Source: a virus
IMG/VR virus record: IMGVR_UViG_3300028548_004857
Span: 1 to 30,799 of that record
Length of the DNA: 30,799 nt
Reading direction: 5' to 3' (one strand)
The notes beneath the pieces were generated by a model, which saw only the letters and a program-made list of their open reading frames with translations, was not told where the DNA came from and did no database searches. This document shows, piece by piece, positions 19,635 to 25,741 of this stretch. The translations under genes and the position numbers were made by a program. Position 1 is the first letter of the stretch, and every line of letters begins with the position of its first letter.

Positions 19635-20136
19635 TTATAGTCACCCATGTTCCACCCTTTATGTTCCTGGCTGTTGCGACTGGCATTAGAACACCTTGTG
19701 CTCCGGCTCCCTGGTCTCCCATCTTTATGGTTTTGCCTCCCCAGGATTGTCTGTGCATGGTGATTATACTTCTGAGAATTGATGTTTTAATAAACCAAAC
19801 GTCATTAGCTACACCGTGAACCCATAGGTCAGGGTTTGGTCCTTCTGGATGTACGCCGGATGGTTTGCCATTGTCCCATGTTTGGATTGCCAGGTTGTTG
19901 CTTGAGTATGCTCTGTCATCCCACTTACATTCAGCTGAGAAGGCAAGGCTGCCAATCAAAGGGACTTCTACTGTGAACTGTATGTCATGTACGATACTGC
20001 TGCTTTTCCATGCGTCTATATTTGCTTGCTTGTTTAGATAACTTACTACCTTCTTCTCGAACGCTTCACCCTGGGCTAACTTTGCCCCGAAGCTAGTTCC
20101 ATAGCTCTTAGTCTGATATCTATACGCGTTGGTCAA
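19627..20136 (-). CDS. PD-(D/E)XK-like nuclease family protein
   Basis: The 169-residue protein has SAECKWDDRAYSSNN (ExK motif with following Asp) and then GKPSGVHPEG...PDLWVHGVANDVWFI, a pattern shared with phage nuclease-like proteins in which a RecB/Holliday-type active site is followed by a GKPSG loop. An earlier acidic residue on the preceding strand (FTVEVPL) could complete the site. The start is TTG at 20136, overlapping the stop of the DnaA-like gene (TTGA); there is no early in-frame ATG. It may process recombination or replication intermediates. Activity is inferred. Confidence 0.62.
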   Translation of the reverse strand: MTNAYRYQTKSYGTSFGAKLAQGEAFEKKVVSYLNKQANIDAWKSSSIVHDIQFTVEVPLIGSLAFSAECKWDDRAYSSNNLAIQTWDNGKPSGVHPEGPNPDLWVHGVANDVWFIKTSILRSIITMHRQSWGGKTIKMGDQGAGAQGVLMPVATARNIKGGTWVTINA

Positions 20137-20519
20137 AATAAGGCTTTTATTGCCTGGTAATGAGAAAAGTACTCAGGGTTTTCAAGTAAACGACGCGCAT
20201 TTCTTTTACCATTTAGAATGCTTGTATGGTCTCGGTTAAACCTGTCACCTAGTTCAGTGAGGCTTTGACCAGTCAGTTCATAAGCAATAAGATATGTAAG
20301 GTGCCTCCATTTAACCAAGCTTTTACTTCTGGAGTAACCTAGCAATACATTGATATCGATTTCCACGAAATCCGCTACTGCTCTGGCAACTTGAGCTGGC
20401 GATAGGATGCCGGATTTATTTCTATAATCTTTACGCCCAGGTATAAGGCCTCTACTAATTTCTTCTTTAACCGATACACGTCCGTTTTGTACCCTTTCAC
20501 GTCCTCCACTACCGTACAT
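20133..20519 (-). CDS. Stand-alone DnaA domain-IV protein
   Basis: The 128-residue protein consists of a basic linker (1-40) and a DnaA C-terminal domain (about 40-112): VARAVADFVEIDINVLLGYSR, LTYLIAYELTGQSL, and the signature NRDHTSIL at 95-102, where Arg, Asp, His and Thr contact the DnaA box. The AAA+ ATPase and DnaB-loading parts are absent. It could occupy DnaA boxes, either competing with host DnaA or marking the phage origin with the initiator encoded two genes later. The only ATG (20519) lies 145 bp inside the nuclease gene, so the linker is overprinted on the nuclease C-terminus; GGGGCGACAGG precedes it. Confidence 0.82.
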   Translation of the reverse strand: MYGSGGRERVQNGRVSVKEEISRGLIPGRKDYRNKSGILSPAQVARAVADFVEIDINVLLGYSRSKSLVKWRHLTYLIAYELTGQSLTELGDRFNRDHTSILNGKRNARRLLENPEYFSHYQAIKALF

Positions 20520-20761
20520 CCTGTCGCCCCATTTCTGCCTTCTATGTTTTTGTTTATGTATCTGAAATCAGCTAGGTAATCGCAGATTTTATATCCATTT
20601 ATCTCGCACCGTATCCTTGGTTGCAGCTCTAAATGTGTTATTTCTCTTGCTTCAAACTGAGGCTTTAACGTAAACCAATAATGCTTAGCCTCTGCCTGGC
20701 TGTCGAACTTGTAACCGTCCAAGACAACTTTCTTATTCTTAAATTTGCTAAACTTTTGCAT
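20375..20761 (-). CDS. DUF1064-like endonuclease
   Basis: The 128-residue protein begins SKFKNKKVVLDGYKFDSQAEA and continues with YWFTLKPQFEAREI, then CDYLADFRYI (Asp) and VVEDVKGYKTDVYRLKKKL, where the D and ExK-like residues form the active site of this restriction-endonuclease-like family. Such proteins resemble T7 endonuclease I and RusA-type resolvers in phage replication clusters. Length is normal for the family. It overlaps the repressor-like gene by 14 bp and the DnaA domain-IV gene by 145 bp. Confidence 0.8.
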   Translation of the reverse strand: MQKFSKFKNKKVVLDGYKFDSQAEAKHYWFTLKPQFEAREITHLELQPRIRCEINGYKICDYLADFRYINKNIEGRNGATGCTVVEDVKGYKTDVYRLKKKLVEALYLGVKIIEINPASYRQLKLPEQ

Positions 20762-20930
20762 CTTTATCCCTTACCGCCATCAAAAAGGTCTCATCATCTC
20801 CAACGCCCAAGACCTTCTTGAGAAGTATGTCTAACGTAACGTTAACATGCCGTCTTTCAGCTCTGGCTCTATCTTCTAAAGCCTCTTTTACTTCGGGTGA
20901 TATTCTACAAAATAAGGTAACTACTGACAT
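20748..20930 (-). CDS. Ribbon-helix-helix DNA-binding protein
   Basis: A 60-residue protein starting SVVTLFCRISPEVKEALEDRARAERRHVNVTLDILL, a beta strand and two helices of the Arc/MetJ type. Such dimers bind short repeats in promoters. It is the first gene of the leftward replication block and lies next to the divergent intergenic region with motif copies C and D, so it is the leading candidate for the protein that binds the recurrent motif. That link is inference. Confidence 0.7.
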   Translation of the reverse strand: MSVVTLFCRISPEVKEALEDRARAERRHVNVTLDILLKKVLGVGDDETFLMAVRDKDAKV

Positions 20931-20941
20931 TTTTTTGAACT

Positions 20942-20964
20942 CTGTTATGGTTTCTTTACAACAG
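20942..20964 (-). promoter_or_regulatory. Recurrent motif, copy C, upstream of leftward block
   Basis: The minus strand reads TTGTAAAGAAACCATAACAG, about 14 bp before the ATG of the ribbon-helix-helix gene. The copy is embedded in an inverted repeat CTGTT/AACAG (20942-20946 and 20960-20964), which strengthens the case for a dimeric regulator site. Confidence 0.55.
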
Positions 20965-21021
20965 ATAGCTCAGAGATATCACTAATAATAGATGAAAAAG
21001 ATGTGAACACGGAAAATAGTC

Positions 21022-21050
21022 TTGCAATTCTGTAAAGATACCATATCTGT
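21022..21050 (+). promoter_or_regulatory. Predicted rightward early promoter with motif copy D
   Basis: TTGCAA (21022-21027), 16 bp, then TATCTG (21044-21049) make a plausible sigma-70-like promoter for the recombinase operon. The spacer is the recurrent motif CTGTAAAGATACCATA (21030-21045), with the small palindrome AGATA-CCA-TATCT at its right end. A factor bound there would block RNA polymerase. The LexA box begins five bases downstream. Confidence 0.5.
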
Positions 21051-21053
21051 CAT

Positions 21054-21068
21054 GAACACCACATGAAC
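21054..21068 (+). promoter_or_regulatory. Alphaproteobacterial-type LexA box
   Basis: GAAC-ACCACAT-GAAC is an exact match to the direct-repeat box GAAC-N7-GAAC (GTTC-N7-GTTC) bound by LexA in alphaproteobacteria, unlike the CTG-N10-CAG box of Enterobacteria. It overlaps the expected transcription start of the recombinase operon. About one match is expected by chance in the window; the chance of one in this 199-bp intergenic region is roughly 0.6 percent. Confidence 0.65.
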
Positions 21069-21129
21069 GCAGTGCGAATATCACGCAGTTAAAGGCACTG
21101 TACAAACAGAAAAGAAAGGAATTACAATT

Positions 21130-21924
21130 ATGTTAGGTGAACGAACAGACCCACCAAAACCGCGATATGGTAAGTACGCTGCTTACATGCGTGTCAGTAC
21201 CGACGACCAAACTATACAGATGCAGGAGCACAAAATTAAAGAATACCTTAACGGAGGAGAGCATCAAGTTGAATGGTTTGCCGACCAAGGTGTATCATCG
21301 GGTGAGGCTTGGATTAAACGCCAGGGCCTTCAAGATGCTATTGCTTACTGTAAAGAAAGCAAGGCAACTCTTATAGTTTACAGCTTAGATAGGCTCTCTA
21401 GACGTGTCTGGGAAAGTCTACGTTTCCTAGAAGAAGAAGTTGATAGGGGTGAGGTTAAATTTGAAATCGTGACTAACCCTCACATTACACGCAGCTCGAT
21501 TGCGCTGGACGCTATGCTTGCAGAAATGGAGCGTGATAAAATACGTACCAGAACAGCTGCGGGCTTTTCTAGGGTTAAGAAAGAACTAGAAGAGAAGGGG
21601 AGATGGACCACTAAGGCTGGAAAAGTTCGTACCTCAATGGGAAATGAAAACATCATTGAGCAAGCCACACCCAAAGCTGCTGAATCACATAGAGCTAAAG
21701 CAAAGGCTCGAGCAGCTAGGGTTGGTCCTGTTATACAAGAAATGCGTGACAGAGGGATGACATGGGCGGCAATTAGCATGGAGTTTAACAAACTGGATGT
21801 CCCAAGCCCAGGAAGACTAAAAGCAAAGGTAGATAGTCCAGGCAAGAAAATGCATTGGTGGTCTCAGTCGGTTTTAAACACGTACAACATATGGAAGAGA
21901 GACAGAGATGGAGAAAAGGAATAA
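21130..21924 (+). CDS. Serine recombinase (resolvase/invertase/integrase family)
   Basis: A 264-residue site-specific recombinase. The catalytic domain (about 14-150) has YMRVSTDDQ with nucleophile Ser23, LIVYSLDRLSRR (Asp87, Arg88, Arg91) and AEMERDKIRTRTAAGF, the start of the long E helix. The C-terminal part has a recombinase-type helix-turn-helix (MTWAAISMEFNKLDVPSPG). It is longer than small invertases (about 190) and much shorter than large serine integrases (450 or more). It could integrate the phage, resolve multimers or invert a segment. AAAGGA precedes the ATG. First gene of the SOS-type operon. No attachment site could be identified. Confidence 0.88.
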   Translation: MLGERTDPPKPRYGKYAAYMRVSTDDQTIQMQEHKIKEYLNGGEHQVEWFADQGVSSGEAWIKRQGLQDAIAYCKESKATLIVYSLDRLSRRVWESLRFLEEEVDRGEVKFEIVTNPHITRSSIALDAMLAEMERDKIRTRTAAGFSRVKKELEEKGRWTTKAGKVRTSMGNENIIEQATPKAAESHRAKAKARAARVGPVIQEMRDRGMTWAAISMEFNKLDVPSPGRLKAKVDSPGKKMHWWSQSVLNTYNIWKRDRDGEKE

Positions 21925-22621
21925 CTTTACAGAGCAGAATATTGAGCGTTCATCCTTTGATGCAACAGAATATTTGTTTGATAATAATAACGATGGGGTC
22001 GCAGTTCATTGCCCAGAGCCAGTGGATATTGAAAGAGCAAAGGAAGTAGCAAACGTATTTAAAGCAGCTGACGGACCAGCAATCGAAAACGCTTTTAAAT
22101 TCACAGCTGAAAGCTTTGAAAACAGATGTAAGCACTACCAAAGTGAAGACGGTAAAGTTCCTGTTTTCTTCCAAGAGTCCTTAAGAATGGATTTTATCAA
22201 AGCTGATTTAATAAAGAACCTAGAGAGAATCACTACCATTAATGATGCTGAAATCACATATTGGAACTCAACTTCATTAAGATTCGCAGCGTGGTGTTGC
22301 TTAACACTCGCCTGGCTAGACAACAAAGTTGTTTCCGTGAACCAACTGAGCGAGGTATCTAAAACTAGCAAAGAAGCCACGAGGAAAATGCTAAAAGAAT
22401 CTGTAGGTTTTGGTTATATTGAAGAAGAAAAACTTGATGGCAAACTTCATTACTGTGCGAAGCTAAGTACAGTAAACAAGTACTATAGGAACCTTCATCA
22501 AGAAACTCAAAGAGCCTCACTGGAGTCTTTATCTCGACTAATGACAATGCATAGCTTTATCAATTATGAGACTGAATTCGTTGCTTTCTCAGGAACTGAT
22601 GAGTTTTATAAGGAAGTTTAA
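21908..22621 (+). CDS. Winged-helix DNA-binding protein coupled to the recombinase
   Basis: The 237-residue protein overlaps the recombinase gene by 17 bp. The C-terminal half has VVSVNQLSEVSKTSKEATRKMLKES, a helix-turn-helix, followed by the wing GFGYIEEEKLDGKLHYCAKLS. The N-terminal 100 residues are acidic and unrecognised. It might be a regulator of the phage or a partner of the recombinase, such as a directionality factor. The family is not identified. Confidence 0.65.
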   Translation: MEKRNNFTEQNIERSSFDATEYLFDNNNDGVAVHCPEPVDIERAKEVANVFKAADGPAIENAFKFTAESFENRCKHYQSEDGKVPVFFQESLRMDFIKADLIKNLERITTINDAEITYWNSTSLRFAAWCCLTLAWLDNKVVSVNQLSEVSKTSKEATRKMLKESVGFGYIEEEKLDGKLHYCAKLSTVNKYYRNLHQETQRASLESLSRLMTMHSFINYETEFVAFSGTDEFYKEV

Positions 22622-22722: not shown

Positions 22723-23106
22723 ATGTACAAGTCATCAAAAGCGAGAGCACGGACGAACTCAACCCTTCAAGCAATTCAAGGTGGTTCCATTCGGTTTAAA
22801 CGCAGAATTGACATCCAAATGTGGCATCCAACGCACGCAACTCAGGCTCTTAAAATATTAGAGGACCTGGTTTCAGAAATGCGTAGGGTAATTTTTGATA
22901 ATCGCTGTAAAGAAGGTCTAACACATCCACAGAAGATGTGGGCAATACAAACTAGCATCCTAAAAGCTAACTCAGATTGTGCGAATATGAGACCATCTGA
23001 CCCTAGAGTTCGTGGAGCTGAATTTGGCAGCTTTACACATAGGGGTTGGACTGAAACAAATGGTCACGATGCGCTCGGAAGTAGAGAAGATTTGAGTAAA
23101 CTTTAA
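22723..23106 (+). CDS. Unknown protein
   Basis: A 127-residue protein with a basic N-terminus (MYKSSKARARTNSTLQ) and a helical middle (ATQALKILEDLVSEMRRVIFDNRC). AAGGAGTG stands before the ATG, so it is probably translated. I recognise no family. It lies between the regulator and the recombination genes, after a 101-bp gap and before the tandem motif copies G and H. Confidence 0.6.
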   Translation: MYKSSKARARTNSTLQAIQGGSIRFKRRIDIQMWHPTHATQALKILEDLVSEMRRVIFDNRCKEGLTHPQKMWAIQTSILKANSDCANMRPSDPRVRGAEFGSFTHRGWTETNGHDALGSREDLSKL

Positions 23107-23218: not shown

Positions 23219-23494
23219 ATGTTAAAAAAGACCATACGATTATATAAACGGTTGTCCGATAATATATATTATCTTAGTACGTACTGTATGCCAGTACTGA
23301 CAGTACAGTCTGTACAGTCTGTACAGTCCATACTGTATAAACGTTACTTTTCAGATACTTACGGAAACTTCGATTTTAAAGCTGTCTGGGAACTGGTATT
23401 ATTGGTCGTTTTATTTGCTCAAATACTTGCACTTTCTTGGGGCGCTTGTGCATTGCTCGACAGCTGCTTTATCTCGAACGGCGGGGTGTTGTAA
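23219..23494 (+). CDS. Small membrane protein upstream of exonuclease
   Basis: A 91-residue protein with a basic, Tyr-rich N-terminus, a VQSVQSVQS repeat (about 29-37) and one clear membrane segment (VWELVLLVVLFAQILALSW, about 60-78). AAAGGA precedes the ATG, and its stop overlaps the exonuclease start (TAATG), which supports translation. Function unknown. The N-terminal coding sequence is packed with palindromes and a 9-bp tandem repeat, so the DNA itself may matter more than the peptide. Confidence 0.55.
   Translation: MLKKTIRLYKRLSDNIYYLSTYCMPVLTVQSVQSVQSILYKRYFSDTYGNFDFKAVWELVLLVVLFAQILALSWGACALLDSCFISNGGVL
23258..23340. repeat. Cluster of palindromes and 9-bp tandem repeats
   Basis: The 83-bp stretch holds GATAATATATATTATC (23258-23273, perfect palindrome), AGTACGTACT (23276-23285, perfect palindrome), GTACTGACAGTAC (inverted repeat, 23294-23306), and three units of GTACAGTCT/C (23303-23329). 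ACAGTCTGT units within the array are themselves inverted repeats. Such density is unusual for coding DNA and suggests a protein-binding site, a recombination site for the serine recombinase, or a second origin. Confidence 0.6.
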
Positions 23495-24423
23495 TGCCGA
23501 AGCTTACTATCACCGGAAAAGAGATTGGGTCTTCCGAAGCCAGCGCAATAGTGCTTCAAAAGAATAGTTACCATACTAGGCAAGAGGTCCTTGAGAGGCA
23601 TAAAAGAGCGAGAGCTGGAGTTGAGGAAATAGGCGAGAAAGTCTTTTCAGAAAATGCTCTTCGTCGAGGGACGCACCTGGAACATTCAATAGCGCCGTGG
23701 GCAGCAGAGGAAATTTTAGAAATTCATGGCGTTACTGTCAAAATGTGGGAGCCAGTCAAATCTTACCAAGTTAAGGAGTTAGGAATAGCATCGAGCGTCG
23801 ATAGGATAATTGAGCTAGAGTCTCCGCTTCGTCTGCAAGGTACTGGTGACGATTTTGTTTTAGAGGGCGAAGGAATTTGTGAAATAAAAACTGACTTCTA
23901 TCACAACTCAAAAGTCAAACCTGAGTGGGTGATACAAGTTGCACACCAGATGCTGTGTACAGGTCACAAATGGGCGATAATAATTTGCATGTCGCAGAAG
24001 GGAAAGCTTCACTATTATCCTGTTGAGTCCAACTCTAAGTTTAATGAGCTGCTTAAAGATTGTTATAAAGAGTTCTGGGAATTAGTTGAAATGGATGGTG
24101 ACTATCCACCACTTGATTTATCTAAAAACGAACCTGAGTTTCTAGACTTAGTTGAAGTTTTACCAAAATCTCATGCTGATGTAGCAATGATGTGCTCAGA
24201 CTATTTAAAAGCTAATTCTGAAGCAAACTCTTGGAAAAAAGTTAAAGATGGTTTAAAAAATAAGTTGGTCGATGTCCTAGACAGCTTAGATATTGAAGCT
24301 GCTAAACTCCCTGGGTTTAAGATTGTTTCCAAAACTGTTCTTAAAAATAAGAAAGAGTACGTAGACACTGGCGATAAAGTAGAAAGCCATAGCTTTAGCA
24401 TTAAGGAAATTAGTTATGAATAA
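23494..24423 (+). CDS. YqaJ-family recombination exonuclease
   Basis: A lambda-exonuclease-like 5'-3' nuclease that makes ssDNA for the annealase. The chosen ATG (23494, MPKLTITGKEIGSSEAS) is coupled to the previous stop by TAATG; the upstream in-frame start at 23437 would add 19 residues lying within the membrane-protein gene. From this start the 309-residue protein shows GSSEASAI (12-19), Asp103 in SSVDRIIE, ExK at 120-122 (GICEIKTD) and IQVAHQM (137-143), the usual active-site order. The stop overlaps the RecT start by 8 bp. Confidence 0.9.
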   Translation: MPKLTITGKEIGSSEASAIVLQKNSYHTRQEVLERHKRARAGVEEIGEKVFSENALRRGTHLEHSIAPWAAEEILEIHGVTVKMWEPVKSYQVKELGIASSVDRIIELESPLRLQGTGDDFVLEGEGICEIKTDFYHNSKVKPEWVIQVAHQMLCTGHKWAIIICMSQKGKLHYYPVESNSKFNELLKDCYKEFWELVEMDGDYPPLDLSKNEPEFLDLVEVLPKSHADVAMMCSDYLKANSEANSWKKVKDGLKNKLVDVLDSLDIEAAKLPGFKIVSKTVLKNKKEYVDTGDKVESHSFSIKEISYE

Positions 24424-25360
24424 GATATCAGTATTAGAACCAACTAACTTAACTGAGGCTATGGCCTTTGCCGAGGTCCTTTCAAAGTCAGGAATGGTTC
24501 CAGCTAACTTCCAGGGTAAACCAGCGAATGTCTTGGTTGCTATACAGTGGGGCTATGAACTTGGATTAGCACCAATGCAAGCTTTGCAGAATATCTCCGT
24601 AATAAACGGGAAACCTTCGATATGGGGAGACTCTATGCTCGCCCTGGTAAAAGCTCATCCAGCTTTTAGAGGAATTAAGGAAGTAATTGAGGGCGACACA
24701 GCAATCTGTGAGATAAAAAGGGAAATGGCTGGTGGAGAGATTGAGACTACCACCTCAACCTTCTCAATAGATGAAGCTAAGCGGGCTGGTCTTTTGGGCA
24801 AGTCTGGCCCTTGGCAGCTGTATCCTCAACGGATGTTAAAACTTAGAGCGCGTGGTTTTGGTCTTCGAGACAGCTTCCCTGATGCGATAAAGGGGTTGAT
24901 TACGACTGAGGAGGCACATGACTTCCCTGATAAGGCCACTGGAGTCCCAAGCTTAGCTCCTGAGAAGCCGCCATCAATTGTTGGTGCTCAAACTGCCACT
25001 GAGATTCTAGATGCCCTTAACGAGCCTAAAACTGCTCCAGAAAAAGAAGTTGAGTTCATCAACCCAATGCGCCCAACTCATTATATACTGTACATACCTG
25101 GCAAAGAACCAAAACACCTTCGGGATGAATTAGAGTTTGTTGACACATATTCTGTGTTGCAAGGAAAGGTGTATAAGGCTGAGAAAATTACTCCAGCAGC
25201 TCGACGAACTAAACTTAAAAATCTTGAGGAAGTTAACGAGCCATCGCTGTCAAGGCTAGACGAAAACTCAAGAGAGCAATTGCGTTTAAAAAGGACACAG
25301 ATGAATAAGGTTTTATCAGTGGCTGAAGAGAAGGAAGGCGTGCAAGATGAAAAACAATAG
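24416..25360 (+). CDS. recT: RecT-family ssDNA-annealing protein
   Basis: A 314-residue single-strand annealing protein. The core (about 10-190) has NLTEAMAFAEVLSKSGMVP, NVLVAIQWGYELGLAPMQAL, NISVINGKPSIWGDSMLALV and PWQLYPQRMLKLRARGFGLRD, the standard RecT/Bet signature. The C-terminal 110 residues are charged and variable, as usual. It forms a pair with the YqaJ exonuclease for double-strand-break repair and recombination, which is useful for replication without a phage polymerase. In the SOS-type operon. Confidence 0.93.
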   Translation: MNKISVLEPTNLTEAMAFAEVLSKSGMVPANFQGKPANVLVAIQWGYELGLAPMQALQNISVINGKPSIWGDSMLALVKAHPAFRGIKEVIEGDTAICEIKREMAGGEIETTTSTFSIDEAKRAGLLGKSGPWQLYPQRMLKLRARGFGLRDSFPDAIKGLITTEEAHDFPDKATGVPSLAPEKPPSIVGAQTATEILDALNEPKTAPEKEVEFINPMRPTHYILYIPGKEPKHLRDELEFVDTYSVLQGKVYKAEKITPAARRTKLKNLEEVNEPSLSRLDENSREQLRLKRTQMNKVLSVAEEKEGVQDEKQ

Positions 25361-25601
25361 TGTAGAAAAGATGGGGTTAACTCATAGACAAAGACAAGTT
25401 TTTAACTTTCTTATTATGTTTGACAAGGTTCATGAAGTTTTTCCAACGTTGCGAGAGGTTGCAAACGGAGAGCTGGACGGTAAACAGTGTCTTAGGAAGG
25501 TTAGTTCAGTAGGTGGAATACACCGAATACTTCGAGAACTTGAAACACGTGGCTGGATAGGCATTAGAAGCAGTTCCGAAAGAGCCATTAGAATATTGTA
25601 A
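25347..25601 (+). CDS. Stand-alone LexA-like DNA-binding domain
   Basis: An 84-residue winged helix-turn-helix resembling only the N-terminal part of LexA: LTHRQRQVFNFLI (11-23), FPTLREVANG (32-41), then SVGGIHRILRELETRGWIGI (54-73) and SSERAIRIL. The GIHR...LE.RG.I block is the form seen in alphaproteobacterial LexA, whose box is GAAC-N7-GAAC. The S24 autopeptidase domain, Ala-Gly cleavage site and Ser-Lys dyad are missing, so RecA cannot trigger cleavage. It could bind the box at 21054-21068 and repress, or compete with host LexA. It overlaps recT by 14 bp; AAGGAAGG precedes the ATG. Confidence 0.78.
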   Translation: MKNNSVEKMGLTHRQRQVFNFLIMFDKVHEVFPTLREVANGELDGKQCLRKVSSVGGIHRILRELETRGWIGIRSSSERAIRIL

Positions 25602-25711: not shown

Positions 25712-25741
25712 AAGTAGCGCCATAAGGCGCTACTTCTTTTT
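25712..25741 (+). terminator. Rho-independent terminator, end of the rightward operon
   Basis: AAGTAGCGCC (25712-25721), loop ATAA, GGCGCTACTT (25726-25735), then CTTTTT. The 10-bp stem is perfect. It ends the plus-strand operon, about 110 bp after the LexA-like gene, and also contains the stop codon of the convergent holin-like gene at 25730. The 110 bp before it are AT-rich with no gene that I can see. Confidence 0.85.

Follow-up and report, generated by a model that had tools for sequence, protein, structure and literature searches.

How a phage might use a LexA DNA-binding domain that lacks the self-cleaving half of LexA is the question raised by an 84-residue protein encoded at 25347-25601 (+) of the window, which is the whole stretch of DNA analysed here (virus record IMGVR_UViG_3300028548_004857, 30.8 kb). 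The structural genes of this marine phage are of podovirus type, and among isolated phages the most similar terminase is found in Methylophilales phage MEP301, at 63% identity. For the recT gene of the window, no close relative was found in a set of one genome for each of 84,980 species, which yielded four distant matches only; an assignment of the host through close prophages was dropped for this reason.

The recombination operon and its last gene

The gene lies at the end of a rightward operon that begins beside a divergent early promoter region (20931-21129), in which GAAC occurs at 20937, 21005, 21054 and 21065. The operon opens with a small serine recombinase of the resolvase/invertase type (21130-21924, +; Pfam Resolvase, 6e-24), followed by a putative winged-helix protein with a weak DnaD-like match (21908-22621, +) and a conserved protein of 127 amino acids whose rightward gene starts at 22723. 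Next come a small putative membrane protein (23219-23494, +), kept upstream of YqaJ in relatives according to tblastn and bearing a hydrophobic segment read from the sequence, and a YqaJ/RecE-like exonuclease (23494-24423, +; Pfam YqaJ, 2.8e-7; phrog_434, 1.1e-27). A RecT-like single-strand annealing protein (24416-25360, +; phrog_561, E 1.2e-50) overlaps the start of the LexA-like reading frame by 14 bp. The first-pass annotation had called this frame the last gene of its operon, and a terminator-like hairpin at 25712-25735 bears this out; the hairpin separates convergent operons, and the genes beyond it include a lysozyme. In the leftward replication operon, a short protein encoded at 20133-20519 (-) carries the DnaA C-terminal helix-turn-helix (Pfam Bac_DnaA_C, E 1e-13).

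A separate feature of this operon is a 16-bp DNA site, TGTC[GC][CTG]ATAAT[AG]TATA, at 23253-23268 (+). Besides the window, about 49 of 80 loci collected through RecT contain it (L002-L057), where chance would give 0. It always occupies the coding strand, 112-309 bp ahead of the exonuclease gene, and each of these loci has one copy apart from L013, which has two. Since the reading frame that covers the site differs from phage to phage, the DNA itself seems to be conserved. It resembles what we take to be the left half and the central part of bacterial dif sites and of Tn3-type res site I, with 17-19 matches over the 28 positions of the whole site, which does not exceed the best matches that chance gives elsewhere. 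As a lead from sequence comparison, the site may perhaps be a recombination core of the dif or resolvase type, on which the small serine recombinase or host Xer proteins would act.

A LexA domain that ends after the wing

The protein had been described from its sequence as a LexA DNA-binding domain without the S24 peptidase half, and profile searches and structure prediction confirm this description. The Pfam LexA_DNA_bind profile (PF01726) matches residues 10-80 with 24.7 bits against a cut-off of 23.7, and it also matches all 22 family members scanned (E <= 0.1; best E 4.9e-15). A direct protein search with the 84-residue frame returned nothing from phage records, viral contigs or PDB sequences. 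A profile built from its relatives, searched against the PDB, found nine LexA sequences (E 3e-11 to 9e-9), followed by a DsrC-family protein at E 0.0016. The AlphaFold2 model (pLDDT 84) has LexA structures as its best Foldseek matches and superposes on DNA-bound E. coli LexA (3jso_B) with Z 10.7 and rmsd 1.7 over 68 aligned residues. Because other winged helices reach Z values of up to 10.0, the fold alone leaves the family undecided, and it is sequence and fold together that decide; the closest matches by PDB profile and by Foldseek are LexA rather than other winged-helix families.

In the model, helix 1 (residues 13-29) and helix 2 (35-40) are followed by an insertion with short strands at about residues 42-49, the recognition helix (55-68) and the wing strands (71-73 and 81-83); residues 57-60 read GIHR and residues 65-71 LETRGWI. 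The stop codon stands directly after the wing, and the S24 domain is absent. Against the full-length LexA profile TIGR00498, the protein covers positions 3-69 of 203 and scores 27.3 bits, compared with a cut-off of 110.95, so that the C-terminal domain of a full LexA, with its Ser-Lys self-cleavage and its dimerisation, is missing from it. No dimerisation element was found in it. The LexA DNA-binding domain on its own is known to bind DNA weakly.

Conservation behind recT

Relatives were gathered by a recT-guided search of IMG/VR, which gave 80 loci that were not dereplicated and include some near-copies. Among the 71 loci with enough downstream sequence, 70 carry a short LexA-domain frame directly behind recT in the same direction, none of these 70 genes includes the peptidase half, and the order of neighbouring genes is the same in most loci. 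The keeping of a similar short gene in 70 of 71 loci rules out a decayed or truncated LexA fragment. Between the window and the related locus L002, the LexA-like protein is 37% identical, compared with 65-66% for the exonuclease and RecT and 84% for a DUF1064 protein, and the LexA-like protein therefore changes fast. MEP301 was considered as a carrier of such a gene after its annealase and rejected, as the annealase gene there is of ERF type and inspection of gp07 showed no relationship.

The recognition helix and the alphaproteobacterial question

The recognition helix had been called typical of alphaproteobacterial LexA. At the five positions that are presumably equivalent to the DNA contacts of E. 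coli LexA in 3JSO, the window protein does agree with the alphaproteobacterial pattern (S-x-SG-HR) at four (S, G, H and R). The likeness extends neither to the whole domain nor to the family. Compared with 11 bacterial LexA domains, the protein aligns best with those of Rossellomorea (Firmicutes; score 73) and Collinsella (Actinobacteria; 70), followed among others by Sinorhizobium (an alphaproteobacterium; 68), Cereibacter (64) and E. coli (47), which amounts to no preference for alphaproteobacterial LexA. With scores about equal for Firmicutes, Actinobacteria and alphaproteobacteria, a specific descent from alphaproteobacterial LexA is not upheld.

Within the family, the contact residues are diverse: SGGHR in the window protein, and SNHFR, STSHR, STSQR, STSAR, STSFK, SQSQR, TQTKY and others elsewhere, with a different recognition helix already in the nearest relative. 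Such diversity would follow from an operator peculiar to each phage, although within the window's clade the contact positions, taken together, do not vary more than the remainder of the protein (63% versus 52% mean pairwise identity). The same clade has an 8-residue insertion between the two helices of the helix-turn-helix, adjoining the recognition helix, that all 11 bacterial LexA domains lack.

The divergent promoter region

An exact GAAC-N7-GAAC match lies at 21054-21068 (+); any one 199-bp stretch would contain such a match with a probability of about 0.003. In the window as a whole, the three copies (0.82 expected) are not exceptional, at least three being found in 6 of 100 shuffles, and the two remaining copies lie outside the divergent promoter region. 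The nearest relatives, L002 and L004, lack the paired box and carry single GTGAACA motifs at two places 60 bp apart. RTGAACR, a motif picked after the fact, occurs three times in the divergent promoter against 0.10 expected. Of the LexA box and the feedback that had been proposed for the operon's own promoter, the exact match in the window stands and its conservation in these relatives does not; feedback on the operon is plausible, as GAAC motifs cluster in the divergent early promoter. A GAAC-N7-GAAC match found in many relatives (GAACTCATTTAGAAC) was set aside since it lies inside the exonuclease gene.

Another element of this region, GATAGC-N5-GATAGC / GATAGCACNGTGCTATC, lies at 20965-20985 and recurs in the divergent promoters of L002, L004, L007, L008 and L011; judged by eye, it is better conserved than the GAAC box. 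The short gene at 20748-20930, close to this element, has no Pfam match and by eye a ribbon-helix-helix look, and its protein could equally be the one for which the element is a candidate operator. Further downstream, tandem 9-bp repeats (GTACAGTCT) and TACTGTA motifs occupy 23276-23338, within the small membrane-protein frame, and both L002 and L004 have them in altered form. As an operator, the TGTAC/GTACAG repeats near 23300 were considered and not adopted, since they lie inside this conserved small frame and vary between relatives. No operator for the LexA-like protein was picked out with confidence.

Proposed role and alternatives

The protein is a conserved LexA-family domain, with the fold of that family, encoded last in the recombination operon. 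Its most probable role, to which we assign a probability of roughly 0.6, is that of a phage-specific transcription regulator consisting of the LexA DNA-binding domain alone and acting at its own operator. Overlap with recT suggests translational coupling, and the protein would be made last and accumulate as the early operon is expressed. Once abundant enough, it may bind its operator, most likely in the divergent promoter region, and change how strongly the early operon, the leftward replication and late genes, or both are transcribed, with a sign and stoichiometry that we can only infer. A protein lacking the S24 half should not respond to RecA, and the signal would therefore be the build-up of the protein itself, as with gp6 of Bacillus phage GIL01. 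Its targets are more likely to be genes of the phage than the host SOS response, and it would act independently of host SOS boxes. This regulator reading is weakened by the GATAGC promoter element, which could equally serve the protein of 20748-20930, by contact positions that are no less conserved than the rest within the window's clade, and by the weak binding of an isolated LexA domain in which no dimerisation element was found.

A role proposed at the outset was that of a LexA mimic that binds SOS boxes without being cleaved. Such a protein would recognise GAAC-N7-GAAC and, even with RecA activated, hold down either the SOS response of the host or a phage promoter under LexA control. Agreement at four of five recognition positions, the exact box and the enrichment of RTGAACR in the divergent promoter, a motif chosen afterwards, speak for it, and LexA-style self-cleavage is indeed not possible. 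It is nevertheless unlikely, since MEP301, with the most similar terminase, infects a Methylophilales bacterium and not an alphaproteobacterium, the box is not kept in the nearest relatives, the nearest relative has a different recognition helix, the insertion adjoins that helix, and the tested precedent, GIL01 gp6, acts otherwise (PMC6182141). Recognition positions vary so widely that binding to host SOS boxes finds no support as a family trait. Very unlikely, too, is the broader form of the mimic reading, in which a widespread lineage of marine tailed phages would close its recombination operon with a LexA mimic that cannot be cleaved, occupies host SOS boxes during infection and blocks SOS induction by the RecA filaments that phage recombination produces.

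Alternatively, the protein could be an accessory factor of the YqaJ-RecT pair, a winged helix that binds double-stranded DNA and assists the annealase instead of regulating transcription. That the gene directly follows recT in 70 of the 71 eligible loci would fit this role. We consider it distinctly improbable all the same: a relative of the gene was not found in the four bacterial-genome loci with a homologous recT, some phages carry members of this family at a distance from any recognised recT, the recognition helix varies, and GIL01 gp6, the nearest homologue that has been tested, activates transcription. That a temperate phage uses the protein as its maintenance or immunity repressor is very improbable, even though the small serine recombinase and the conserved dif/res-like site could serve integration, because the gene ends the recombination operon while CI-type repressors are divergent, no conventional integrase appears among the open reading frames scanned, and recT has no close relative in species genomes. 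The earlier suggestion that the protein keeps the phage silent has little behind it for similar reasons, as the scanned frames of the window contain neither a phage repressor nor a conventional integrase.

In a common group of phages from the environment, most of them marine, the recombination operon regularly includes a LexA-domain-only protein, probably a regulator. The 70 loci form a ready set for finding operators and for asking whether the late-gene control exerted by GIL01 gp6 is general.

Comparison with known systems

Proteins consisting of the LexA domain alone are already known in phages, and the window protein adds another. It matches three groups of short phage LexA-domain proteins, PHROG 362 (transcriptional repressor), 3502 and 24920, the latter two without a function label (E 4.2e-6 to 5.2e-4), whose profiles are 106-131 positions long compared with its 84 residues; PHROG 3502 matches all 22 family members scanned. 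Several entries of about 70-100 amino acids in a viral structure library are named LexA repressor DNA-binding domain-containing protein. Close parallels are gp30 of Pelagibacter phage HTVC103P and its counterpart in HTVC104P ('putative transcriptional repressor LexA'), which likewise come from marine phages, are about 85 amino acids long and are limited to the LexA domain. When two relatives of the window protein served as queries, identities to these proteins were 30-37%; their gene neighbourhood is different, with no recognised recT adjoining. Further annotated examples occur in cyanophage Ssp-JY39 and in Edwardsiella phage EPP-1, where the gene is away from recT and beside an antirepressor-like gene.

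Compared with bacterial LexA (E. coli, 3jso; T. maritima, 3k2z), the window protein has the same domain fold, lacks the linker and the S24 dimerisation and self-cleavage domain, and carries the insertion in its helix-turn-helix. The tested counterpart is gp6 of the betatectivirus GIL01, an early-encoded, truncated LexA homologue made up for the most part of the winged-helix domain. It binds a palindrome that is separate from the LexA boxes and overlaps the -35 element of the late promoter P3, does so while LexA occupies its own boxes, and activates late transcription (PMC6182141). GIL01 gp6 is 44% identical to the host LexA domain and is a shown activator of P3, and its helix-turn-helix differs from that of the window protein, which is split by the 8-residue insertion. 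Both proteins consist of the LexA domain alone and are encoded by an early phage gene, early expression of the one described here being suggested by its operon.
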